Origin: Archangium sp.
GTDB lineage: Bacteria; Myxococcota; Myxococcia; Myxococcales; Myxococcaceae
Direction of reading: 5' to 3'
DNA: 42,052 bases
Assembly (NCBI GenBank): GCA_016792935.1
Contig: JAEUJS010000152.1
Span: 1 to 42,052, forward strand
The notes under the pieces were generated by a model, which did not search any database, was not told the DNA's origin, and worked only from the letters and a program-made list of their open reading frames with translations. The translations under genes and the position numbers were made by a program. Below, one piece after another: positions 7,828 to 35,500 of this stretch (its first letter is position 1; the number at the start of each line of letters is the position of its first letter).

Positions 7828-7900
<73 letters not shown>

Positions 7901-7929
7901 CAGCGCGCAGCAGGTAGCGCAGAAAATCA

Positions 7930-11700: not shown

Positions 11701-12542
11701 CCGGGACCGGGGCACGTGAGGTTGGTGCACATCGTACCGCTCGCGCAGGTGCGCGTGTCGCAGTCGATGTCCAGACAATCGGCGGCACCGTCTCCGTCAT
11801 CGTCGAGGCCGTTGCCGCAGTCACTCTCGGGAGGGAAGCAGCCGAACGTCAAAGAGCCTCCATCGCTCGAGCCCGCGTCGGTGGCGCCTCCGTCGGTCGT
11901 GCCCGCGTCCGTTCCGCCGTCGGACCCTGCGTCGGTGCGCATGATGACGCCGCACTTCCACGGCGGAGGCATGGGCGTGACGCATTCGAGGCCCAGGCAC
12001 GAGGTGTCGAGACAATCGGTGACGCCGTCGTTGTCGTTGTCGAAGCCGTCGTTGCAGGTCGTCTCTTCGCACGCCGAAGTCAGGCAGGTGGTGCCGGTGC
12101 CGCACACGCGCGCGCATTGACCGCAGTTCTGCTCGTCGGCCGTGAGATCAAAGGTCTCGTCGGTCATGCCGTCGCAATCATCGTCGAGCATGTTGCACAG
12201 CTCCGCCGTGGGCATCATGGTCTGGCCGCACGAGAGGGCGCCGACGGTGCAGGTGCGCGCTCCGGTGGAGCAGCGCCCGAGCAGGCCGGTCATGCACGCC
12301 TCGCCCATTTCAGGGAACGTCTCGTCGATGCGGCCGTCGCAGTTTTGATCGACGCCGTCGCACGTCTCGTCATCGACGCACTCGCCCAACTTGAAGCAGC
12401 GGCCGCCGCCTTCGAACTGCGGGCGGCACTCGTAGCCCTGGCCACAATCGGAACCCGCATCGCAGCTGAAGCGGCCGGCATCGGGGTTCAGGTACTGGCA
12501 GCCGACGAGCGCGAAGCCACAGAGAAAGAGGAGCGCGCGCAT
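11697..12542 (-). CDS. MopE-like cysteine-rich lipoprotein
   Basis: The 281-residue product begins with a lipoprotein signal (lipobox A-L-V-G-C). It then carries several MopE-type metal-binding repeats: CDGVDQNCDGRIDE, CNMLDDDCDGMTDE, CNDGFDNDNDGVTDC and CGNGLDDDGDGAADC. These Asn/Asp-Gly-Asp loops between cysteines are known from MopE-related proteins and are common in myxobacterial surface proteins. An Asp-Ala-Gly/Asp-Gly-Gly linker separates the third and fourth repeats. Both ends overlap neighbours by ATGA (12542 with the PEGA gene, 11697-11700 with the propeller gene), so translation is probably coupled and the proteins may act together. Metal binding is inferred from the repeats; no enzyme domain is visible. 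Confidence 0.88.
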   Translation of the reverse strand: MRALLFLCGFALVGCQYLNPDAGRFSCDAGSDCGQGYECRPQFEGGGRCFKLGECVDDETCDGVDQNCDGRIDETFPEMGEACMTGLLGRCSTGARTCTVGALSCGQTMMPTAELCNMLDDDCDGMTDETFDLTADEQNCGQCARVCGTGTTCLTSACEETTCNDGFDNDNDGVTDCLDTSCLGLECVTPMPPPWKCGVIMRTDAGSDGGTDAGTTDGGATDAGSSDGGSLTFGCFPPESDCGNGLDDDGDGAADCLDIDCDTRTCASGTMCTNLTCPGPG

Positions 12543-13624
12543 CAGAAGGCCCCCGCGACGCTGACGCCACCGCCGGTGCCGGTGCCGTTTCCGGAGACGG
12601 TGACCGTGGGCGTGACGGTGACGGGCGCGGCGCGCGTGCCATCGACGATGCCGGAGATGATGGCGCCGACCAGCGCGGCTCCACCGACGGCGAAGGTGAT
12701 GTTGGCGATGGTGGCGTTGCGGTTCTGCTCGAGGGCCTGCGCGCGCGTGCCCAGAAAGACCATCGTGTCCGGGTTGTACCCGGCGTTCAGCGCGTTGAAC
12801 TGGCCGCGCGAGATGAGACCGAAGATGAAGCCGGCGCCACCGCTGGCGATGGCGGTGCCTCCGAGAATCCACGTCAACGCAGAGAGCGTCACCGTGGTCG
12901 GCTGCTTGTCGTCATCGGGCTTCCTGGTGAGCGCGGGGACGATTTGATCGTCCGGAACCTGGCCGGGGATGAGCAGCAGTTTGAACTCGGCCTTCGTTTC
13001 CTGATTCGCCTCGACGCCGATGAGCCGCGTGATGGGGAGGTACTTCTTGCGCTCGATCTTCACCTCGTACTTGCCGGGCTTGAGGTTGAGCGTCACGGGA
13101 GGCGCCCCGATGAACTCGCCGTTCATGGTGATCTGCGCGTCGCCGAGGTTGGCGGTGATGGACAACGTGCCGCGGGCCTCGCGTTCTCCGCGCAGCAGTG
13201 GAGGCACGGCCTGCTCGACGTCTTTCTGGAAGCGACGCGCGGCGATGAGGATGGATCGATCGACGTCGGCGACGACGGTGAGGCCGGGAATGTCGATGAG
13301 CCACAGCTTCAAGATGTAGTTCTTCTCGTCGCGGCTGAGCTGGCCCATGACCGCGCGCTTGATGCCGAAGCTCTCGAGCTCTTGCGCGACGCAGGCGGGT
13401 TTGCCGCCACACTTCTTGAGCGACTCGTAGCGCTTGGCGTCCATCTTCGAGCGCAGGTCGTCGGGCGAGACGAGATCGACCTTCTGGTTCTTCGCCTCGG
13501 TGAGGATGGCTTTGGTCACCTGCGCGCCGAGACCCATCATCAGATCGGGCGCATCGACATCGACGACCGCGGTCTTCGGCCCCGAAGCCAGCACCAACGC
13601 GGCCACGGAGAGAACGGAGTGCAT
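12542..13624 (-). CDS. PEGA-domain envelope protein with two membrane helices
   Basis: The product (360 residues from the ATG at 13624) starts with a signal peptide. A conserved alpha/beta domain follows, with a Cys pair in KKCGGKPACVAQEL; this looks like the TolB-N/CsgG-like modules often found in myxobacterial PEGA proteins. A PEGA-type beta domain follows (AQITMNGEFIGAPPVTL, then LKPGKYEVKIERKKY). Two hydrophobic Gly/Ala-rich helices sit near the C-terminus, which ends in a Thr/Val/Gly-rich tail. A TTG at 13663 could extend the N-terminus by 13 residues, but it would precede the signal peptide. It is the first gene of the cluster and is divergent from the rluA-like gene, with about 30 bases between starts. 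The role is probably envelope-structural; no enzyme activity is evident. Confidence 0.83.
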   Translation of the reverse strand: MHSVLSVAALVLASGPKTAVVDVDAPDLMMGLGAQVTKAILTEAKNQKVDLVSPDDLRSKMDAKRYESLKKCGGKPACVAQELESFGIKRAVMGQLSRDEKNYILKLWLIDIPGLTVVADVDRSILIAARRFQKDVEQAVPPLLRGEREARGTLSITANLGDAQITMNGEFIGAPPVTLNLKPGKYEVKIERKKYLPITRLIGVEANQETKAEFKLLLIPGQVPDDQIVPALTRKPDDDKQPTTVTLSALTWILGGTAIASGGAGFIFGLISRGQFNALNAGYNPDTMVFLGTRAQALEQNRNATIANITFAVGGAALVGAIISGIVDGTRAAPVTVTPTVTVSGNGTGTGGGVSVAGAF

Positions 13625-13655
13625 CACGGCGGGGCACTGTATTCTTCTGTGCGTC

Positions 13656-14678
13656 TTGAGCAACGACGACGGGATCTCGATTCACCCAGCCGACTCGTCG
13701 GCTGATCTCCTCACCTTCACTGTGGAGCCGAACTACGCGGGCTGGCGGCTCGACAAATATCTCTGCGAGAAGATCAAACGCGCGTCACGCACGCGGGTGC
13801 AGGAGATCATCGAGAACGACGTGATCTACGCCGAGCGAAAGCTCAAACCTTCGACGCCCGTATGGCCGGGGCTGACGTTTCAAGTGCGGCGCCGGGTTCG
13901 CGATGAGCCGACGGTTCCCGATGCAGATCAGATCGAGATCGTGTTTCAAGATGACGACGTGCTGGTGGTGAACAAGCCGGCGGGGCTCCCGATTCATCCC
14001 ACGGCGCGGTACCACCACAACACGCTCGTCGAGCAGCTGAAGAAGCGCTTCGGCGAGGGCTTCAGCCCAACGGCGCCCGCGGCAAAGACCGACTTCCGTG
14101 CGGACCCCGCGCATCGGTTGGATCGCGAGACGTCGGGGCTGCTGGTGTGCGGGAAGACGCTGCAGGCGTGTCAGCGGCTGATGAAGTCGTTCATGGATGG
14201 GTCGGTCGACAAGCAATACGTCGCCATCGTCGAGGGGCAGCCGACGCGTGATGCGTTCGAGGTCGATGCGCCGATCGCAGAAGGCACCGAGGTGATTCGC
14301 ATCGCGGTGCGCATCGACGCGAAAGATGGCCGTGACGCTCGCACTCGTTTCGTGGTCGAGAAGAAGTTCGAGCGCGATGGCGCACGATTCGCCGTGCTGC
14401 GGTGTTTTCCCATCACGGGGAGGCAGCACCAGATTCGCATTCATGCGCAGCACGCCGGCTTTCCGCTCGTGGGAGACAAGATGTACGGGCCGGACCCGGG
14501 CTACTTCGATCGCTTCTCGAAGCATCAGCTCGAAGAAGAGGCGTGGGTGAAGTTGCGGCTGAAGCGGCAGGCGCTGCATGCGGCGGTCATCGAGTTCCCG
14601 CACCCCGTCACGCGCGCGGCGATGAAGTTCGAGTGCCCACTTCCGAAGGACATGAGCGACTTCGTCGCGGGCGCTTGA
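13656..14678 (+). CDS. RluA-family 23S rRNA/tRNA pseudouridine synthase
   Basis: The 340-residue protein has an N-terminal S4 RNA-binding domain (about 22-80) and an RluA catalytic domain. It contains HRLDRETSGLLV (from residue 153), where the Asp is the catalytic residue, plus VVNKPAGLPIHPT, a TGRQHQIRIH motif and the FPLVGDKMYG segment. These enzymes isomerise specific uridines in rRNA or tRNA; which member this is cannot be told. The start is uncertain. TTG at 13656 is chosen as the first in-frame start outside the divergent gene, and a TATTCT box lies ten bases upstream; GTG at 13722 is an alternative. Neither has a Shine-Dalgarno site. Confidence 0.9.
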   Translation: MSNDDGISIHPADSSADLLTFTVEPNYAGWRLDKYLCEKIKRASRTRVQEIIENDVIYAERKLKPSTPVWPGLTFQVRRRVRDEPTVPDADQIEIVFQDDDVLVVNKPAGLPIHPTARYHHNTLVEQLKKRFGEGFSPTAPAAKTDFRADPAHRLDRETSGLLVCGKTLQACQRLMKSFMDGSVDKQYVAIVEGQPTRDAFEVDAPIAEGTEVIRIAVRIDAKDGRDARTRFVVEKKFERDGARFAVLRCFPITGRQHQIRIHAQHAGFPLVGDKMYGPDPGYFDRFSKHQLEEEAWVKLRLKRQALHAAVIEFPHPVTRAAMKFECPLPKDMSDFVAGA

Positions 14679-14711: not shown

Positions 14712-15146
14712 ATGGCTTCGTGGCGCGGGAGACTCTTCAAGTTGGCGCTGCGCGGGGCGGCGTGGTCGTCGCGGAATTCGTGGGCGAGCGTGGTGTCGAC
14801 TCCGTTGCTTTCGGCGATCGGAAACGTTCTCGCTCGGAGTCGCGGAGTGCAGACGCAACACCAGCCGCAGGCGCTCGCTGAGACCTGGCAGCGCGCGTTT
14901 CCTTCGAAGCGCGAGGTGCCGATCATCGGCGTGACGGAGCGTGAGGCGTTCGCGGAGATTCACACCGTGTGTCCACTGCGTGGCTCAGGCGACCTCGCAG
15001 CGTGTCATCGGATGATGGCGTACGACCGTGCGTTCGTTGCGCGCGCGGGAGGGAAGTTCGTGGTGCTCGAGTCGCAGGCGACGCCGGGCGTGACGCGGTG
15101 CCGGGTTTCGATCGCTCCTACGTTGAGCGCTCGCTTCAGAAGGTGA
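14712..15146 (+). CDS. Unknown small protein with conserved-looking Cys/His cluster
   Basis: The 144-residue product is not one I recognise. Its N-terminal third is basic and helical. The C-terminal half holds a compact motif (HTVCPLRGSGDLAACHRMM, YDRAFVARAGG, VVLESQATPG, TRCRVSIAP) with three cysteines and a histidine arranged like a metal or Fe-S site, though this is a guess. It has no signal peptide or clear membrane helix. It follows the pseudouridine synthase by 33 bases and its end overlaps the end of the converging caspase gene by 11 bases. Confidence 0.65.
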   Translation: MASWRGRLFKLALRGAAWSSRNSWASVVSTPLLSAIGNVLARSRGVQTQHQPQALAETWQRAFPSKREVPIIGVTEREAFAEIHTVCPLRGSGDLAACHRMMAYDRAFVARAGGKFVVLESQATPGVTRCRVSIAPTLSARFRR

Positions 15147-16770
15147 CTTGAGCGCCGATCGAGATCGACGGGTACGCGAACCACGAGAACTGTGAGCTCG
15201 CTTCCGTCTCTCCGTACTGCAGACCCGTGAACGTCAGGTCGCCGCTCGCGACGATCGAGAACGACGGCACGATGCGGAACTTCAGATTCGCGCGCGGAGC
15301 CACGGTGAAGATCGCCGTCGCCGCGCGCGAGCCGTAGAGCTGCGCCAGCACACCAGGGCCGAGCTCGAGTCCCACTCCGAACTCGAAGCGCCACAGCTGC
15401 AGTCCAACGCGATAGCCGACGCGCACCTGCCCGCCCGCTTCGTTCGCTGCTTCGCTTCCGTTCAGCAACGCAGGCTCGAAGCTCATCTCGCCGAGCGCGA
15501 GCAGGTGCAGCGAGCCGAGCAACCGTCCACCCGCGAAGGACGCGAACGTGGTGGTCAGCGGCTCGAAGTCGACGCGCAGCTGCCACTTCGGGTCGCGCGC
15601 GTTCATTTGAAGAATGCGCCCCGCTCCACCGACGCTCACACCGAGGTTGATGCCGGTCTTGAGCGTCGCCGGCTGCTCGACCTGCTGCACCACGAGCGGT
15701 CCGCCCTTCGCTGCGACCAGCACCGACGAAGAGACCGGCTGCAGCGCAGACATCGCGACGACGTGACGCTGTCCATCCGTCAACGTCACGCGACCGCCGT
15801 AGCTCTGCCCACCCTTGAACAGCCGCAGACCGTACTGGCCCGGCGCGAGCGCGACTTCCTTCGCTCCGCCGACGACCTCGACGACGACTTGATCGCGCGC
15901 CAGGTCCGTCACCATCGCGCGCTCGGCATCGGGCAGCACCAGCATGGACGACGGCTTCAAGAGCGACGAGAGAACGAGCTCACCCTGCCCCGAGAGGCGG
16001 AAGTCGTAGTTCGGGTGCTGCGCTCCGACGGCGAGCATCGCGGTGCTCGAGACCGTGCGGTCGTACGCGTACTTGTACGCCTCCGCCAACGTGACGAGCT
16101 TGTCGCCGCTGGTGTCGGCCGCTCCGCGCAGACCCGAGATGAAGTTGTGGGTGAAGTAGCTGCCCATCACTTCGCTCGACTCGAGCGCCGCTTCGTCAGC
16201 CGCTGAAGAAGTGATGAACGCTTCGCCGGTCGCCTGCAGCGTGTCCGCCAGACGAATGGTGAAGCCCTCGACCGACTTGCCGCCCTTCTCGCGAAGCCCG
16301 GCACCTGAACGGCAGGCATCGACGACGACGAGACGAACATCGGCCGCGGTGCCGGTGAGCAACGCCTTCAAGCGCGGGTACGCGAGCTTCTCTCCGCTGA
16401 GCTCGATGGCCTCTCCGTCGCTGTGACCGGAGAAGTAGAAGAAGACGACGGTGCGCACATCGGGAGAGCGCTTGAAGAACGCGATGCGATCTCTCGCTTC
16501 AGCGATGGCGCGCTCGACCGAGCCGACTTTCTGCCCCTGGAGCAACAGCACGTCGTCGGCTTGAACGTCTCCGAGCTCGACGAGGACGCGGGCCATCTTT
16601 CCGGCGTCGCTCTCCGCGTACCGCAGCGGAGGCATCTCACCGGTGCCCGCGTTGTTGCCGACGACGATGGCGATGCGTCGCGTCTCAGCGCTGACCGTCG
16701 TCGCTGCCAAGACCAGGGGCAGGACCAACGGCAGGAGCAGCCGGGACAGACGCGTCGCCTGCGAGATCAC
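15136..16770 (-). CDS. Secreted caspase-fold protease (peptidase C14) with probable outer-membrane barrel
   Basis: The GTG start at 16770 overlaps the anti-sigma stop (GTGA). The 544-residue product has a signal peptide (to about residue 28) and a caspase-like p20 domain starting RRIAIVVGNN. The catalytic dyad is visible as FYFSGHSDGE (His116) and VVVDACRSGAG (Cys153). A beta-rich middle domain resembling a PEGA-like carbohydrate or sensor module runs to about 365. The last 170 residues alternate hydrophobic and polar residues, with aromatic girdles, and end in AQVTF. That C-terminal Phe is typical of outer-membrane beta-barrels. The protease would then be displayed at the outer membrane or periplasm, unlike cytosolic metacaspases. 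It is the third gene of a coupled ECF sigma/anti-sigma operon and is probably controlled with them. Confidence 0.9.
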   Translation of the reverse strand: MISQATRLSRLLLPLVLPLVLAATTVSAETRRIAIVVGNNAGTGEMPPLRYAESDAGKMARVLVELGDVQADDVLLLQGQKVGSVERAIAEARDRIAFFKRSPDVRTVVFFYFSGHSDGEAIELSGEKLAYPRLKALLTGTAADVRLVVVDACRSGAGLREKGGKSVEGFTIRLADTLQATGEAFITSSAADEAALESSEVMGSYFTHNFISGLRGAADTSGDKLVTLAEAYKYAYDRTVSSTAMLAVGAQHPNYDFRLSGQGELVLSSLLKPSSMLVLPDAERAMVTDLARDQVVVEVVGGAKEVALAPGQYGLRLFKGGQSYGGRVTLTDGQRHVVAMSALQPVSSSVLVAAKGGPLVVQQVEQPATLKTGINLGVSVGGAGRILQMNARDPKWQLRVDFEPLTTTFASFAGGRLLGSLHLLALGEMSFEPALLNGSEAANEAGGQVRVGYRVGLQLWRFEFGVGLELGPGVLAQLYGSRAATAIFTVAPRANLKFRIVPSFSIVASGDLTFTGLQYGETEASSQFSWFAYPSISIGAQVTF

Positions 16771-17546
16771 GGTGTAGCCTTGCGAAACTCACGGAAAACG
16801 AAGCTCACCCCCGGCAGCTTCGGATTCTTGGCATCGAGTTTGAGCGCGGCTTCCACCTGCGCGGCAGTGATGGGCGCGTCCGAGAAGACCGCAACGATCT
16901 TCTCCGCTCCCAACGTGTCATCGAGCTCGACCGCGCCCGGCAATTCGACCTTGGCCTTGCCCTCGACCGGGTGGCTCTGCGCCGCTCCGAACGGGTGATA
17001 GACCGAGAACACGCCCGCACCATCGGTGGAGGCGACCATCAAGTACTTCGCTCCCGCGGGGCTCACCACGAAGCGAATGCGATCGCTCGGGTGCAGCACG
17101 GTGTCGTCCTTCACGGCGAACGCGGCACCAGCGCCGCGCATGGCGAACACTTCGAAGGACGGCGACGCAAAGCCCTTCATGCCGACGTACGAATCGTCTT
17201 CGGTCTGCGTCCCGGGCCCCGTGGTCAACACCACGGCAGCCGCGGCGCCTGCGACGGCGAGCGTGGGAATCAACAACTTCAACTTGAAGCGATCGAAAAA
17301 GCTCCCGCGGCTCGCGGCCACGCGGGCCTCGACCTTCGGGAGCGTGCGCGCGAACACGAACTGTTCGAAGCGCGCCTTGTCGTCGTTCAGCTCACGCCAG
17401 CGGGTGCGGCAGCTCTCACACGAGTCGATGTGGTGCTTGGCTTCGTTCGCTTCAGGAGCGGACAACGCAGACAGCAACAACAGGTCGATGGTCTCGGAAG
17501 AGAGGTGGGCTCCGCGGGGATGAGCGGTGGCCGTTGAAGAGTTCAT
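16767..17546 (-). CDS. Zinc-finger (HC2-type) anti-sigma factor
   Basis: The 259-residue protein has the anti-sigma zinc motif HHIDSCESC (His39-x3-Cys43-x2-Cys46), a single transmembrane helix (about 90-109) and a C-terminal periplasmic domain. That domain contains VKDDTVLHPSDRIRFVVSP and KYLMVASTDGAGVFSVYHP, which look like a DUF4384-type sensor module often found with caspase-like or FecR-like proteins. Its ATG overlaps the stop of the sigma factor gene, and its stop overlaps the start of the caspase gene. It is expected to hold the sigma factor at the membrane until an envelope signal arrives. The signal is unknown. Confidence 0.9.
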   Translation of the reverse strand: MNSSTATAHPRGAHLSSETIDLLLLSALSAPEANEAKHHIDSCESCRTRWRELNDDKARFEQFVFARTLPKVEARVAASRGSFFDRFKLKLLIPTLAVAGAAAAVVLTTGPGTQTEDDSYVGMKGFASPSFEVFAMRGAGAAFAVKDDTVLHPSDRIRFVVSPAGAKYLMVASTDGAGVFSVYHPFGAAQSHPVEGKAKVELPGAVELDDTLGAEKIVAVFSDAPITAAQVEAALKLDAKNPKLPGVSFVFREFRKATP

Positions 17547-18055
17547 GCGACACCTTCCCGCTCGACGAACTTGCGCGAGCGCTCCAGGAATTCCTGAAGG
17601 CGGTTGATGACGGTGCGGCGCGAGATGCCAAGCGTGTTGGCGATCTGCTCCTGCTCGAGTCCGTCCATGTAATAGAGCACCGCGACTTCCTGCAGCTTCT
17701 CAGGAGCGCGCTTGATGAGGCGCATCGCCGTGTCGCGATCGAGCATGTCGGGCTCGGGCGTCGTTCCATCACCCTCGGGCAGCTCTTCCGGAGCGGTGGG
17801 CTCGGCCTGACGCGAACGATCGCGAATCTGGTTGAGGCAGTAGTTGGTGCTGATCCGGTAGATCCACGCCAACGCCGTCGCGTCGTCCGGGGCACTCTCG
17901 ATGTGTCGAAGCACGCGCACAAAAACCTCCTGCGTGGCGTCTTCCGCGAGGGCGTCATCCTTCAACAGCCGACGACAACGCGAATAGATCGCCGTACCGA
18001 ACTTCCGGTACAGGGTTGAAACCCGTTCGCCGGTCTGAACCCCAGGGTCGACCAC
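17543..18055 (-). CDS. ECF-type RNA polymerase sigma factor
   Basis: The product is 170 residues if started at GTG 18055, which has AAAGG nine bases upstream. A GTG at 18232 would add 59 unconserved residues and is less likely. Region 2 is visible as [20 protein letters not shown] and [20 protein letters not shown] short acidic linker follows, then region 4 ([20 protein letters not shown] and [13 protein letters not shown]). It is the first gene of a three-gene coupled operon with an HC2 anti-sigma factor and a secreted caspase-like protease, so it probably directs their transcription. Confidence 0.93.
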
Positions 18056-18355
18056 CGTGTGCAGCCTTTCTGTGTGCTGGGCGCGCGACTTCTTCGCGAC
18101 TGGCTCCCTACACGACCCTACAGCTGGGGGAAACCACCCTCGGTGACTGGTCGAGGGCTGTTTCGCAGCAACATCGGAAGAGTTCGTGTGGGGAGTCAAA
18201 GGCACAGGAGGTGTCTGACAAAGTCGAGCCACCGCATGTGCAAACTACCGGAAAGCCATGTTGTTCCGAGTGGTTACAAGACCGAAATTCCCGGCAATTC
18301 CGGCTCGCCATGCGGCCGTGGTGGGAAAAGCAATTCCCCACTAAGTCGCGCGGCC
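18056..18355. other. Intergenic region between ECF operon and purF
   Basis: These 300 bases separate divergent genes and show no convincing protein. On the minus strand GGAAC (18267-18263), followed about 15 bases later by GGTAGTT, resembles an ECF-type -35 element. Near purF an imperfect inverted repeat, GTGGGAA (18321-18327) and TTCCCCAC (18334-18341), ends 14 bases before the start codon. Neither is strong enough to call. Confidence 0.4.
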
Positions 18356-22665: not shown

Positions 22666-24363
22666 ATGGGCGGCTTGCTTCTCATCATCGGACTGGCGGT
22701 TCTGGGCTACGGCCTGGCGCAGCACTTCAAGGGCAAGCGCATCCTCGCGGCGCCTTTCAAGAAGACGGGCGACATCGCGAAGAACCCGGTCTCGGAAGAC
22801 CCGAAGGGCGCGATGAGCACCGAGGGCAAGGTCCTCGCTCCGCAGCAGCAGCTGCTCTCGCCGTGCACCAAGCAGCCTTGCCTCGCCTACGAGGTGAAGG
22901 TCGAGCGCATGTACGAGAAGACCGAAACGACCCAGGACGGCACCAAGACCGTGAAGGGCACCGAGACGCTCGAGACCGTGAAGGGCGGCTCGGTGTTCGG
23001 CCTCGATGACGGCTCTGGCGCGATCATGATCGACGTCACCAAGGGCGCCGACTTCGACAACATGAAGGAAGGCTACAAGAAGGACATCAACGGCCACTCC
23101 GGCAGCTCGCACATTCAGTTCGGCGAGTTCCGCTTCGACGTTCCGGCGATCAGCAGCAGCAGCGGCTGGACCATCGGCTTCAAGGCGACCGAGAAGTTCG
23201 TTCCGGTCGAGGGCAACCTGTTCGTCCTCGGCAAGCTCGACGGCGGCAAGCTGACCAAGCCGGGTTGGCGCTCGATGTTGACCTCGGCGAAGGGCCGCGA
23301 AGGTCTGCTCGGGTCGATCGCGAAGAAGAAGAAGTTCTCGTTCATCGGTGGCGGCGTGGCGGCGGTGCTCGCGATTCCGCTGATGATCTTCGCCCCTGAG
23401 GCGGACCCCAACGCGGTGTCGGCGTACTGCGAGAGCACGTTGACCGATGCCCGTCAGCGCTGCAGCGACAACGTGAGCGACGTCGACGGCGAGAAGTTCA
23501 CGTGGACGGTGACGAAGCCCGGTGAATACGAGCTGTCGGTCATCGCGCCGCAGAAGAAGATCAGCCTGATTCCCCAGCTCGTCCTCAAGGACAGCAAGGG
23601 CGAGGAGCTCGTCAACGAGACCGGCCCGATGGGCGGCACGGTGTCGAAGACGGTGAAGGTCGAGGCGGGCACGTACGAGCTCGCGGTGCTCCCGGCCGAC
23701 AACTACATGGTCAAGGGCGGCTACTCGTTCGACATGGAAATCAAGTCGCTCGCCGTCGACGCGGTTCCCGCGGTCGCTGCGAAGGATGGCGCGGAGCAGC
23801 AGGACGGCGTGGCGTACAGCGACGAGAAGCTCACCGAGCGCGTCGCGTCGCTCAACGAGATGTGCCCCGACACGTTCTGCGAGGGTCAGTTCGACTACCA
23901 GTTCAAGAAGCTCGCCTGCGCCGATGCGACCCACTGCGTGCTGTCGTTCACCGCGAAGGACCAGGACAACAAGAAGAAGAAGCCGATGGACGTCGAGCTC
24001 GAGATCGCTGGCTTCAAGGCGCTCGAGCAGGACCTGGAGCAGGACTACCAGTACGAGGGTTCGTTCGACGAGGCCGTCAGCAACGCCCTGATGAAGTGGG
24101 AAGAGCACCCGGTCGCGAAGAAGGTCACGACGCCGGCCGCTCCCTCGAAGGCGAAGTCGATCGCTGCCCCGACCAAGGCGGACAAGAAGGAGAAGGCGAA
24201 GGCCGTGGCTCCCGCGCCGAAGCCGGTGAAGAAGACCGAAGTCGCGCCGAAGGCTGAGATCATCGCGGCGGCTCCGAAGCCGGTGGAGAAGAAGACGGTG
24301 GCGGCGGCTCCGGTTGCGGCGACGCCTTCGAGCAACCGCACCAGCAAGAACCTCGAGGACTGA
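22666..24363 (+). CDS. GIDE-like membrane protein with C-terminal extension (paralogue 1)
   Basis: The ATG at 22666 has AGAGGA eight bases upstream. The 565-residue protein has an N-terminal helix (3-18), a soluble domain with LLSPCTKQPCLAYEVKVER and later VEGNLFVLGKL that resembles the GIDE domain of MULAN-type proteins, and a second helix (224-243). A beta domain (about 265-360) recalls the bacterial pre-peptidase C-terminal (PPC) fold (TWTVTKPGEYELSV, then YELAVLPADNYMVKGGYSF). Unlike its paralogue at 32783 it adds a domain with MCPDTFCEGQ and ADATHCVLSF, and a Lys/Ala/Pro-rich tail. The family's role in bacteria is unclear; membrane-bound sensing or scaffolding is only a guess. A strong terminator follows. 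Confidence 0.85.
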   Translation: MGGLLLIIGLAVLGYGLAQHFKGKRILAAPFKKTGDIAKNPVSEDPKGAMSTEGKVLAPQQQLLSPCTKQPCLAYEVKVERMYEKTETTQDGTKTVKGTETLETVKGGSVFGLDDGSGAIMIDVTKGADFDNMKEGYKKDINGHSGSSHIQFGEFRFDVPAISSSSGWTIGFKATEKFVPVEGNLFVLGKLDGGKLTKPGWRSMLTSAKGREGLLGSIAKKKKFSFIGGGVAAVLAIPLMIFAPEADPNAVSAYCESTLTDARQRCSDNVSDVDGEKFTWTVTKPGEYELSVIAPQKKISLIPQLVLKDSKGEELVNETGPMGGTVSKTVKVEAGTYELAVLPADNYMVKGGYSFDMEIKSLAVDAVPAVAAKDGAEQQDGVAYSDEKLTERVASLNEMCPDTFCEGQFDYQFKKLACADATHCVLSFTAKDQDNKKKKPMDVELEIAGFKALEQDLEQDYQYEGSFDEAVSNALMKWEEHPVAKKVTTPAAPSKAKSIAAPTKADKKEKAKAVAPAPKPVKKTEVAPKAEIIAAAPKPVEKKTVAAAPVAATPSSNRTSKNLED

Positions 24364-32664: not shown

Positions 32665-32782
32665 CAAAGCCCTTTTCACTCTGACGCACCGCGATGGGTA
32701 TTGTCCGCGCCGGGGGAAGGGTTCCCGCTTTTCTCAACACGTTCAACGCCGCCACGCGCGGCACAACACTGGAGTGCACCAG

Positions 32783-34027
32783 ATGGGTGGTTTCCTGCTT
32801 TTCATCGGCCTGGCGGTTCTCGCCTTCGGCCTCTACAACATGATGGCGATCAAGCGCGTGCTTGCGGCGCCGTTCAAGAAGACGGGCGAGCTCGCGAAGA
32901 ACCCGGTGTCGGAAGACCCGAAGGGCGCGATGTCGACTGAGGGCAAGGTGATCCCGCCCGCGACGCAGCTCCTCTCGCCGTGCACCAAGCAGCCGTGCCT
33001 GGCGTACGAAGTGAAGATCGAGCGTCTCTACGAGAAGACCGAGACCACGCAGGACGGCACCAAGACCGTGAAGGGCTCTGAGACGCTCGACACCGTCAAG
33101 GGTGGCGCGGTGTTCGGCCTCGACGACGGCTCGGGCGCGTTCAACATCGACGTCAGCAAGGGCGCCGACTTCGACAACTTCAAGGACGGCTTCAAGAAGG
33201 AAATCAACGGCCACTCCGGCAGCTCGCACATCACGTTTGGTGAGTACACCTACGACGTGCCGGCGATCGGCTCTGACCGCGGCTGGACGATCGGCTTCAA
33301 GGCGACCGAGAAGTACGTGCCGGTCGAGGGCAACCTGTTCGTGCTCGGCAAGCTCGAGGGCAACAGCATCGTGAAGCCGGGTTGGCGCTCGATGATGACC
33401 TCGGCGAAGGGCCGTGAGGGTCTGCTGGGCTCGCTCGAGAAGAAGAAGAAGTTCTCGTTCATCGGTGGCGGCGTCGCCGCGGTCCTCAGCATCCCGCTGA
33501 TGATCTTCGGCCCGAAGGCCGACCCCAACGCGCTCGGTGCGCACTGCCCGTCGGAGATGACGGACGTTCGCCTGCGCTGCAGCAACCAGGTCACGGATGA
33601 CGACATCTACACCTGGACCGTGACGAAGCCGGGCAAGTACGAGCTGACCGTGTACGCGCCGGCGAAGAAGGTTCCGTTCGACCCGGGCCTCATCATCACC
33701 GACTCGTCGGGCGCGGAGATCGCGAACGTCGCCGGTGGCGTGGGCAACAACGCGGTCGCGAACGTCGACGTCAAGGCTGGCACGTACAAGCTGAAGGTGT
33801 GGCCGGCGGACAACTACAAGGTCAAGGGCGGCTACTCGTACGAGTTCGAGATTGCCTCGGTTGGTGGTGACGCGGCCCCCGCGGTTGCCGACCCGCTGAA
33901 CGGCGAAGGCGAGCCGAAGGCTGAGGACGTGGCGGCGGCTCCGGAAGGTGACGCGCCTCCCCCGGCCGACGAGCCTGCTCCTGCGCCGGCTCCCGCGCCT
34001 GCGAAGAAGAAGAAGGGCAAGAAGTAA
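32783..34027 (+). CDS. GIDE-like membrane protein (paralogue 2)
   Basis: The ATG at 32783 has GGAG eight bases upstream; a GTG nine bases earlier (32774) would add three residues. The 414-residue product matches the 22666 gene almost throughout its first 360 residues, including LAAPFKKTGE, AKNPVSEDPKGAMSTEGKV, LLSPCTKQPCLAYEVK, VEGNLFVLGKLEG and the second helix FSFIGGGVAAVLSIPLMIF. The PPC-like beta domain (TWTVTKPGKYELTV, LKVWPADNYKVKGGYSYEF) is shared too. It lacks the extra cysteine domain of paralogue 1 and ends in a Pro/Ala-rich tail with KKKKGKK. High conservation of the GIDE part suggests both do the same core job with different tails. The function is unknown. Confidence 0.85.
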   Translation: MGGFLLFIGLAVLAFGLYNMMAIKRVLAAPFKKTGELAKNPVSEDPKGAMSTEGKVIPPATQLLSPCTKQPCLAYEVKIERLYEKTETTQDGTKTVKGSETLDTVKGGAVFGLDDGSGAFNIDVSKGADFDNFKDGFKKEINGHSGSSHITFGEYTYDVPAIGSDRGWTIGFKATEKYVPVEGNLFVLGKLEGNSIVKPGWRSMMTSAKGREGLLGSLEKKKKFSFIGGGVAAVLSIPLMIFGPKADPNALGAHCPSEMTDVRLRCSNQVTDDDIYTWTVTKPGKYELTVYAPAKKVPFDPGLIITDSSGAEIANVAGGVGNNAVANVDVKAGTYKLKVWPADNYKVKGGYSYEFEIASVGGDAAPAVADPLNGEGEPKAEDVAAAPEGDAPPPADEPAPAPAPAPAKKKKGKK

Positions 34028-34111: not shown

Positions 34112-34171
34112 GGCGAACGAGCGTTGAGCCAATCCTGCGGCGCCGACGACCGGGCCGGCGCCAGCGGGACG

Positions 34172-34216
34172 AGGGCTCGGACTTCTTCATTGAAGGCCGG
34201 GCCCTTCGTGTTTTTG
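34172..34216 (+). terminator. Rho-independent terminator after the second GIDE gene
   Basis: AGGGCTCGG (34172-34180) pairs with CCGGGCCCT (34197-34205, one G-U) and is followed by TCGTGTTTTTG. It lies immediately before the chosen start of the ceramidase-like gene and supports that later start. Confidence 0.7.
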
Positions 34217-34225
34217 TGCGCTGCG

Positions 34226-35500
34226 GTGAAACGGTTGAAGCGTTGGAAGTGGCCGTTGCTGGTGCTCGTGCTCGCGCTCGGAGCGTGGCGCTGGGCGTCG
34301 ATCGATCGCTGCGGCGAGTGGCCCTTGAAGCCGGCGGCGCTGACGCAGCTCGCGCAGAGCCAGGGCACGCTCAGCGTCGGAGCAGCCGTCGTGCCCTTCG
34401 TGCTCGACTTCCCGATGACGGTGGGCGGCTTCGGGCCGTTGCGCGGCTCGGCGGACAAGGTGCTCACTCCGCTCGGTGCGCGCGCGTTGATCATCGAGAA
34501 CGGCTCGCAGCGGCTGACGCTGGTGGTGCTCGACGTGTTGCTGATTCCTCCGCAGGTGAGAGATCAGATCGCCGCGAATCAGAAGGGTCAGGTGTGGGTC
34601 ATCGCGACGCACACGCACACCGGGCCGTCCGGCTTCGATCCGCGCGCGGCCTCGGAGCTCGCGGCGCTCGGCTCGTTCAACCAGCGAGATCAGAACGCCA
34701 TCATCGAAGCGGGTCGCAAGGCGATCGACGCGGCGAACACGAAGCTCGTCGCGGTGAAGCTCGAGGTCGGAGAGGGCGCCAACGAGCTCGCCGTCGCGCG
34801 CAGCGGGAAGGAAGTCGATCGCCGCATCACGCGCGCGCGCTTCGATTCTCTCGACGGAGCGGTCGCGCAGGTGGTGATCATCTCCGGGCACCCCACGCTC
34901 GAGCCGCGCAAGCCGGAAGGGCTGCACGGTGATTGGCCCGCGGTGCTCGCGCAGCGCCTCGAAGCGAACGGCGGTCCGGTGACGCTGGTGCTCCAGGGCG
35001 CGGCCGGCAACGCGAGCATCAACCGTGACGTGGCGTCGACTCCGGAGCTCGCCGCGGAGAAGTTGGAAGGCGTGGTGCGGAACATCGTGACGGTGGCGCA
35101 GCCCGAGCCCATCGGCGCGGCGTGGAACGAAGTGCGGGTGGCGTTGCCGCGGCCTGATGCTTCGCGCGTCGCTCCGGCGGGTGCGCGGGAGCTGGCTGAG
35201 AATTTTCTGTGCGACGACGCGGAGGACTTCGTGTTGCTGCACGGATTTCGGCTGGGTGAGCTGAGTCTGCTCTTCGTGCCGCTCGAGCCTTCGTTGGCCG
35301 CGGGGCTGGTGCTCGAAGAACAGGCTCGCGTCGGTCGTGTGGTGTCACTTGCCGATGGGTATGCGGGGTATGTCGAGCCGGTCGAGGTCGCTCGCAACGG
35401 TGAAGGAGAGGCGCACCGGCAGTATTTCCCTGCGGACTTGATCACGCAGCTCGCAGACGGTGCTCGGCTCGCGGGTGATGCGATGAAGCGGGCGCAGTAA
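34226..35500 (+). CDS. Neutral-ceramidase-like membrane-anchored hydrolase
   Basis: Starting at GTG 34226, just past the terminator, the product is 424 residues; a TTG at 34124 would run through the hairpin and is rejected. An N-terminal helix (9-21) with basic flank anchors it. The catalytic part resembles neutral/alkaline ceramidases: VGAAVVPFVLDFPMTVGGFG, RALIIENG, LDVLLIPPQVRDQI and the zinc motif THTHTGPSGFDPR (His129 and His131). Later LVLQGAAGNASINRD and ISGHPTLEPR fit the same family. True neutral ceramidases are about 650-700 residues, so this is a short member. Myxobacteria make ceramide-type sphingolipids, so lipid turnover is plausible, but the substrate is inferred. Confidence 0.7.
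   Translation: MKRLKRWKWPLLVLVLALGAWRWASIDRCGEWPLKPAALTQLAQSQGTLSVGAAVVPFVLDFPMTVGGFGPLRGSADKVLTPLGARALIIENGSQRLTLVVLDVLLIPPQVRDQIAANQKGQVWVIATHTHTGPSGFDPRAASELAALGSFNQRDQNAIIEAGRKAIDAANTKLVAVKLEVGEGANELAVARSGKEVDRRITRARFDSLDGAVAQVVIISGHPTLEPRKPEGLHGDWPAVLAQRLEANGGPVTLVLQGAAGNASINRDVASTPELAAEKLEGVVRNIVTVAQPEPIGAAWNEVRVALPRPDASRVAPAGARELAENFLCDDAEDFVLLHGFRLGELSLLFVPLEPSLAAGLVLEEQARVGRVVSLADGYAGYVEPVEVARNGEGEAHRQYFPADLITQLADGARLAGDAMKRAQ

Follow-up and report, generated by a model that had tools for sequence, protein, structure and literature searches.

Can a caspase-fold protease encoded directly behind a sigma factor and its inhibitor be the enzyme that sets this sigma factor free, and on which side of the outer membrane would it act? 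The question is raised by three genes in a 42,052-nucleotide stretch of Archangium sp. DNA (contig JAEUJS010000152.1 of assembly GCA_016792935.1, hereafter the window), which lie on the minus strand from 18055 to 15136 with a 4-base overlap at each junction. They encode an extracytoplasmic function (ECF) sigma factor of 170 aa with a GTG start (17543..18055), an anti-sigma factor of 259 aa (16767..17546) comprising an H39-x3-C43-x2-C46 motif, a transmembrane (TM) helix, a flexible stalk and a DUF4384-like beta domain, and an exported caspase-fold protein of 544 aa, also with a GTG start (15136..16770), as recognized by Pfam, predicted structure and Foldseek. The initial annotation had described this coupling of an exported caspase to an ECF sigma factor and a zinc-finger anti-sigma factor with a DUF4384-like domain; all genes were found in place on that strand, and the junctions do read ATGA and GTGA. 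Here we report that linkers of the caspase and the anti-sigma factor carry three near-invariant [K/R]-G dipeptides, which from sequence comparison appear to be new, and we regard it as an even matter whether the operon specifies a relay of proteolytic steps that links the outer membrane to transcription, in which the caspase would release itself, cut the anti-sigma factor and free the sigma factor.

The first dipeptide (KG1, K162-G163; 16282..16287, on the minus strand as are all features of the operon) is located nine residues past the catalytic Cys, constitutes a candidate autoprocessing site and is present in 106/106 operon caspases; caspases carry a processing loop in the region after the catalytic Cys. 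The second (KG2, K355-G356; 15703..15708), a candidate release site in the linker between the catalytic part and the C-terminal barrel, is conserved as [KR]G in 100 of the 101 readable operon caspases, 75 of them with K and 25 with R. The third (KG3, K124-G125; 17172..17177) is found in the juxtamembrane linker of the anti-sigma factor, outside both the zinc finger and the beta domain, and is a candidate for site-1 cleavage: 108 of 109 readable caspase-adjacent anti-sigma factors display it (105 KG, 3 RG), 6-29 residues (median 13) from the end of the TM segment, and its two columns are the most conserved of the protein (0.97 and 0.99, versus 0.78-0.79 for the zinc cysteines). These sites are kept although pairwise identities within the two proteins have medians of 0.31 and 0.26. 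Furthermore, only five columns across both proteins are at least 90% basic, three of which are the K/R-G sites, and none of the others is followed by a conserved Gly. A [KR]G within 35 aa past the TM segment was found in 106/106 operon anti-sigma factors (50.6 expected from shuffles), versus 4/18 zf-HC2 controls (4.8 expected). A divergent group (L230, L231, L237, L240 and L241) keeps both caspase sites, with K or R; two of its members, L231 and L237, display hydrophobic helix-like stretches in place of the barrel and Arg-Gly instead of Lys-Gly, and KG2 still parts the catalytic part from the anchor.

Because the same basic-Gly pair stands in three linkers of neighbouring proteins, one protease cutting all three sites would be the simplest single reason for it. 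The dipeptides could also be structural, capping the DUF4384-like fold and forming turns in the caspase loop and ahead of the barrel, with their threefold occurrence a coincidence. Such a role would suit KG3, which precedes the first predicted strand by only ~5 residues, and it would fit both the Gly-x-Arg-Pro-Leu motif found nearby in distant caspases and the occurrence of KG in anti-sigma factors with no caspase close by. Conversely, K and R replace each other (25% R at KG2), linkers differ freely in length and in neighbouring residues, and the sites are located in or beside linkers modelled with low confidence: KG1 and KG2 fall within segments of predicted local distance difference test (pLDDT) <50 (349-369 in the case of KG2), and KG3 just past another such segment. 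Since three independent structural reasons for a single dipeptide would be needed, we consider this explanation improbable.

The enzyme proposed to cut at these sites belongs to the caspase family by several lines of evidence. PF00656 is its best domain (E 2.3e-13; 50.8 bits, cut-off 21.4), and the predicted catalytic residues His116 (16423..16425) and Cys153 (16312..16314) are exactly those named in the initial annotation. The His-Cys dyad of the caspase (p20) domain is intact in 104/104 loci, as in Peptidase C14 and orthocaspases; pseudo-caspase loci were sought among these 104 as a natural experiment, and none was found. Asp151, two residues ahead of the Cys, is equally present in 104/104 loci, from which cleavage after Lys or Arg is predicted. 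The curated profile of EACC1-associated caspases (NF047832) scores 61.1 bits against a cut-off of 140, placing the protein outside that family, and the CHAT profile scores 12.8 bits against 24. Export is indicated by a signal peptide at residues 1-28 (...TTVSA/ETRR; 16687..16770), with a nearly invariant A28 at the predicted cleavage point; exported members are described as a known minority among prokaryotic caspase homologues (PMC3501461). An EF-hand-like loop, D219-x-S221-x-D223...E230 (16081..16116), whose pattern occurs in 101/104 loci, may bind Ca2+, and the secondary structure of the model includes a beta-rich domain at residues 254-346 (15733..16011), between the caspase domain and the linker.

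Regarding the C-terminal third, proposed earlier to form an outer-membrane barrel, the AlphaFold2 model is in agreement, predicting, after a disordered linker, an 8-strand outer-membrane-type beta-barrel at residues 375-544 (15139..15648), with eight long strands at 375-543 and block pLDDT values mostly of 82-97 (two blocks are lower, at 77 and 74). Foldseek matched this part to the small barrels NspA, OmpA, Ail, OmpX and OmpW (E 7.6e-6 to 6.7e-4), and the N-terminal part, in a model of moderate confidence, to caspases 6/7/8 and MALT1 (E 2.7e-5 to 7e-4); by sequence, no useful relative of known structure turned up for the caspase (best E 0.97). The signal peptide, the even number of strands and the aromatic C-terminus (...GAQVTF) are those of outer-membrane barrel proteins, and membrane insertion is predicted. 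OmpA-type barrels with an even number of strands have both ends in the periplasm, so that the N-terminal caspase would lie in the periplasm rather than outside, facing the periplasmic domain of the anti-sigma factor. Thus, from the notion of a caspase displayed at the outer membrane, the barrel-type anchor is retained, and by this topological argument outward display is unlikely. No result of the analysis supports an envelope-stress input or a killing role, both raised in the initial annotation.

The two partners of the caspase were assigned as follows. The sigma factor is a short protein with regions 2 and 4 only, as is characteristic of ECF sigma factors (Sigma70_r2 56.3 bits and Sigma70_r4_2 26.5 bits, each above the Pfam cut-off), and its GTG start at 18055 is backed by close relatives, which carry ATG or GTG there. 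The anti-sigma factor combines the H-x3-C-x2-C motif with a position beside an ECF sigma gene, as ZAS proteins do; H39, C43 and C46 (17409..17432) are invariant in 28/28 aligned orthologues, while the zf-HC2 profile scores 19.8 bits against a cut-off of 22.2 and is found at E<=0.01 in 13 of the 28. A hydrophobic stretch at about residues 91-109 (17220..17276), matched by TM windows across the family, forms the membrane segment. Residues 153-224 (16875..17090) constitute the DUF4384-like domain: PF14326 scores 17.8 bits in the window protein against a cut-off of 27, is found at E<=0.01 in 22/28 aligned orthologues, and exceeds the cut-off in 5 of the 10 genome matches listed. The model displays a long helix ending in the membrane segment, a stalk of pLDDT <50 and a beta domain that is Ig-like and resembles DUF4384; no structural match to this domain was found at E<=0.001. 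The DUF4384 profile matched ten places in ten genomes of this group; judged by position, these lie in caspase operons except for L209 and L222. Cyanobacterial orthocaspases carry DUF4384 as one of their more frequent accessory domains (23 listed; PMC8283722), which suggests that DUF4384-like domains and caspases function together; in those cyanobacterial proteins it is fused to the caspase, whereas here it is located in trans, on the anti-sigma factor.

Since prokaryotic caspase homologues are reported to cleave after Arg or Lys (PMC6426788; PMC3501461), and K/R-G pairs occur in three linkers, we propose self-maturation, release from the anchor and cleavage of the anti-sigma factor as successive functions of the caspase. 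In the relay as we infer it, from the localisation through all cleavages and their order to the signal and the regulon, the C-terminal barrel would tether the exported caspase to the outer membrane, with the catalytic part in the periplasm; the trigger may act at the barrel or, with Ca2+ involved, at the EF-hand-like loop. The caspase would then cut itself after K162, in the linker past the catalytic Cys, and also after K355, in the barrel linker, which would free the active protease. The freed caspase would cut the anti-sigma factor after K124, about a dozen residues beyond the inner membrane, and so take off the DUF4384-like domain; a site-2 (M50) protease together with cytoplasmic proteases would finish the anti-sigma factor, freeing the ECF sigma factor. 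A stub of ~13 residues from the membrane would suit such an M50 follow-up, and M50 proteases were present in 4/4 genomes searched.

The arrangement recurs widely. The assembly holding the window (8.83 Mb, 740 contigs, 81% complete) contains 9 caspase matches, and at least one match was found in 54 of 60 related genomes, with up to 14 each; the operon belongs to a large family of paralogues spread over Myxococcaceae and their relatives. From 104 distinct loci selected by caspase similarity, 86 carry sigma and anti-sigma genes alongside, in answer to whether the three-gene arrangement exists elsewhere; 3 have an anti-sigma gene only, 14 have neither and one could not be judged. In a set that includes loci fetched via the anti-sigma factor, both partners accompany 106 of 126 caspase matches. 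The 60 further caspase places with flanks came from near the top of the matches, with some passed over, and are not all the matches. Before counting, loci on contigs already represented by other loci (L038-L043, L045), a duplicate (L148, identical to L050), repeats (L178-L207) and an overlapping locus (L247) were dropped; operon counts exclude the distant taxa L053-L117, and L248-L257 stood outside the analysis. Gene order is mostly sigma, anti-sigma, caspase on one strand, with four divergent versions (L005, L144, L146 and L240) in which the caspase gene is opposite to the sigma and anti-sigma genes. Among 34 co-oriented triples, sigma and anti-sigma genes overlap in 31, anti-sigma and caspase genes in 27, and both junctions overlap in 25, and therefore the arrangement is not due to chance. 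Pairwise identities of caspase and anti-sigma factor correlate at r=0.90 over 95 operons (the largest of 200 permutations gave 0.063), a correlation expected anyway of genes inherited together. An anti-sigma profile search of 40 genomes left five with no match, namely the three with no caspase match and the two with only a weak one (E 1e-9 and 6e-13).

Several observations weigh against the relay. Regarding the anti-sigma site, among 18 anti-sigma factors classed as not adjacent to a caspase, one (L217) has a caspase ~1.2 kb upstream of its sigma gene, four (L226, L232, L239 and L246) end at contig ends, and five (L234, L238, L242, L244 and L245) are zf-HC2 proteins in which no DUF4384-like part was seen. 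The remaining 8 form an unpaired set, with no caspase in the flank retrieved, which includes L213, with a flank of only 1.45 kb, and L212, with a caspase match ~5.4 kb off on the same contig. Seven of these 8 DUF4384-type proteins (L208, L209, L212, L213, L215, L224 and L225) keep KG and L222 lacks it, so that the control by adjacency fails for KG3, which may therefore be structural or general, or be cut in trans. At L209 (G036:C47, 3486-7262), the place of the caspase gene behind the sigma and KG-type DUF4384 anti-sigma genes is taken by two matrixin (M10) protease genes. As for the caspase sites, the 14 orphan caspases lacking adjacent sigma and anti-sigma genes retain KG1 in 12 cases and KG2 in 11; a Fisher comparison of operon and orphan caspases gave p=0.005 for KG2 and p=0.11 for KG1, tests that are not strong because the loci are related. 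In some distant caspases KG is located a few residues beyond, and K is not conserved (27 of 75 matches). The caspase model has an overall predicted template modelling (pTM) score of 0.41, with residues 155-193 and 245-272 under pLDDT 50, and the low values around KG1 may stem from a shallow alignment. Finally, in the upstream regions compared, sigma orthologues keep a ribosome-binding-site-like stretch ahead of the start and no common ECF-type -35/-10 pair was found; because of this, autoregulation of the operon is not claimed.

Two further explanations bear on these unpaired genes. The caspase could be the output of the pathway: a different protease, DegS-like or trypsin-like, or a ligand at the DUF4384-like domain would switch the sigma/anti-sigma pair, and the caspase would be made in response, to act in cell death or on other proteins of the envelope. 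ECF operons under autoregulation often include genes for effectors of their own, and the retention of KG in 7/8 anti-sigma factors with no nearby caspase, the orphan caspases in 14/104 loci and the speculation on autolysis in Myxococcus xanthus (PMC3501461) would agree with such a role; by itself, however, it leaves unexplained why the same invariant K/R-G stands in two caspase linkers, and we hold it to be rather unlikely. A cascade, in which paralogous caspases share one recognition site and an upstream or orphan caspase cuts several anti-sigma factors and pro-caspases in trans, would draw on the 9 caspase matches of the window's genome, on sites identical among paralogues and on the orphan caspases L031 and L123, whose genomes also hold the unpaired KG anti-sigma factors L208 and L209. 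The tight one-to-one linkage and the correlated divergence favour cognate pairs instead; by nearest neighbours, L208 is only a loose partner of L031, and L209 is no partner of L123. We consider a cascade very improbable.

Comparison with described systems places the proposed relay among known themes. The caspase/sigma arrangement itself has been on record since 2012, when it was reported for other genera and, in the laboratory strain M. xanthus DK 1622, for four out of five metacaspases (PMC3501461); with this report and the 9 matches in the window's own genome, it is less unusual than its initial description suggested. Those Sigma-70/metacaspase operons (M. xanthus DK 1622, Anaeromyxobacter, Haliangium, Sorangium, Ralstonia and Fibrobacter) likewise join a caspase homologue to a sigma factor, and very probably represent the same family, a likeness drawn from description and not from compared sequences. 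The account given there of these operons names no anti-sigma partner, barrel anchor or K/R-G sites, and the terms 'anti-sigma', 'zinc finger' and 'cleavage site' occur 0 times in the main text. A search that stopped short of the subscription literature and of the 2021 ECF re-classification, which could cover this ECF group, gave no published description of the anti-sigma partner, of the barrel or of K/R-G sites. In type III-E CRISPR systems, the caspase-like (CHAT) protease Csx29 cuts Csx30, the inhibitor of an adjacently encoded ECF-type sigma factor (CASP-sigma), relieving the inhibition (PMC10028731); the same logic is proposed here, and there it is proven and cytoplasmic. That system differs in its trigger (crRNA and target RNA), in its TPR-CHAT protease and in Csx30, which is cut at 427-429 and is no zinc-finger membrane anti-sigma factor. 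The operon does not belong to it, as defined by a TPR-CHAT protease with Cas7-11 and crRNA, no search having been aimed at Cas genes. The DegS/RseP - RseA - sigma E pathway of E. coli (PMC10028731) shares the proteolytic release of an ECF sigma factor from a membrane anti-sigma factor after a cut on the periplasmic side, but its site-1 enzyme is an inner-membrane serine protease, whereas here it would be a self-freeing outer-membrane caspase. EACC2-caspase systems (PMC8195603) combine a caspase domain bearing a variable C-terminal part with an adjoining ECF sigma factor, and autopeptidase activation was proposed for them; they differ by their EACC2 domain and DUF1822 TPR protein, and their description does not extend to a zinc-finger anti-sigma factor with DUF4384.

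Other features of the window are as follows. A purF-like gene is the divergent neighbour of the sigma gene, and the interval between them (18056-18355) contains a GAACAGGTAGG...GTGTAGGAG-like stretch and an AGAAAGG-TGCACAC stretch common to near relatives. Elsewhere in the 42 kb we observed two GIDE (E3-ubiquitin-ligase-like) domain matches (22666-24363 and 32774-34027, plus strand; E 5.5e-9 and 1.8e-9), a PEGA-domain protein (12542-13663, minus strand; E 5.1e-12), a neutral/alkaline ceramidase-like protein (34124-35500, plus strand; E 9.9e-11) and a tRNA-Ala(CGC) gene (7828-7901, plus strand).

For the family as a whole, we tentatively put forward a reading to which we give a little less than even weight, namely that a single K/R-G code serves three purposes, caspase maturation, detachment from the anchor and the cut of the anti-sigma factor, that the freed protease carries an outer-membrane event across the periplasm, and that the paralogues would form parallel or cross-talking channels with a role in signalling and not in death. 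If the relay is true, the caspase would be the site-1 protease of an ECF pathway, and a whole family of myxobacterial caspases would act as signalling proteases of the periplasm, for which both a substrate and, to the residue, the cleavage sites are predicted.

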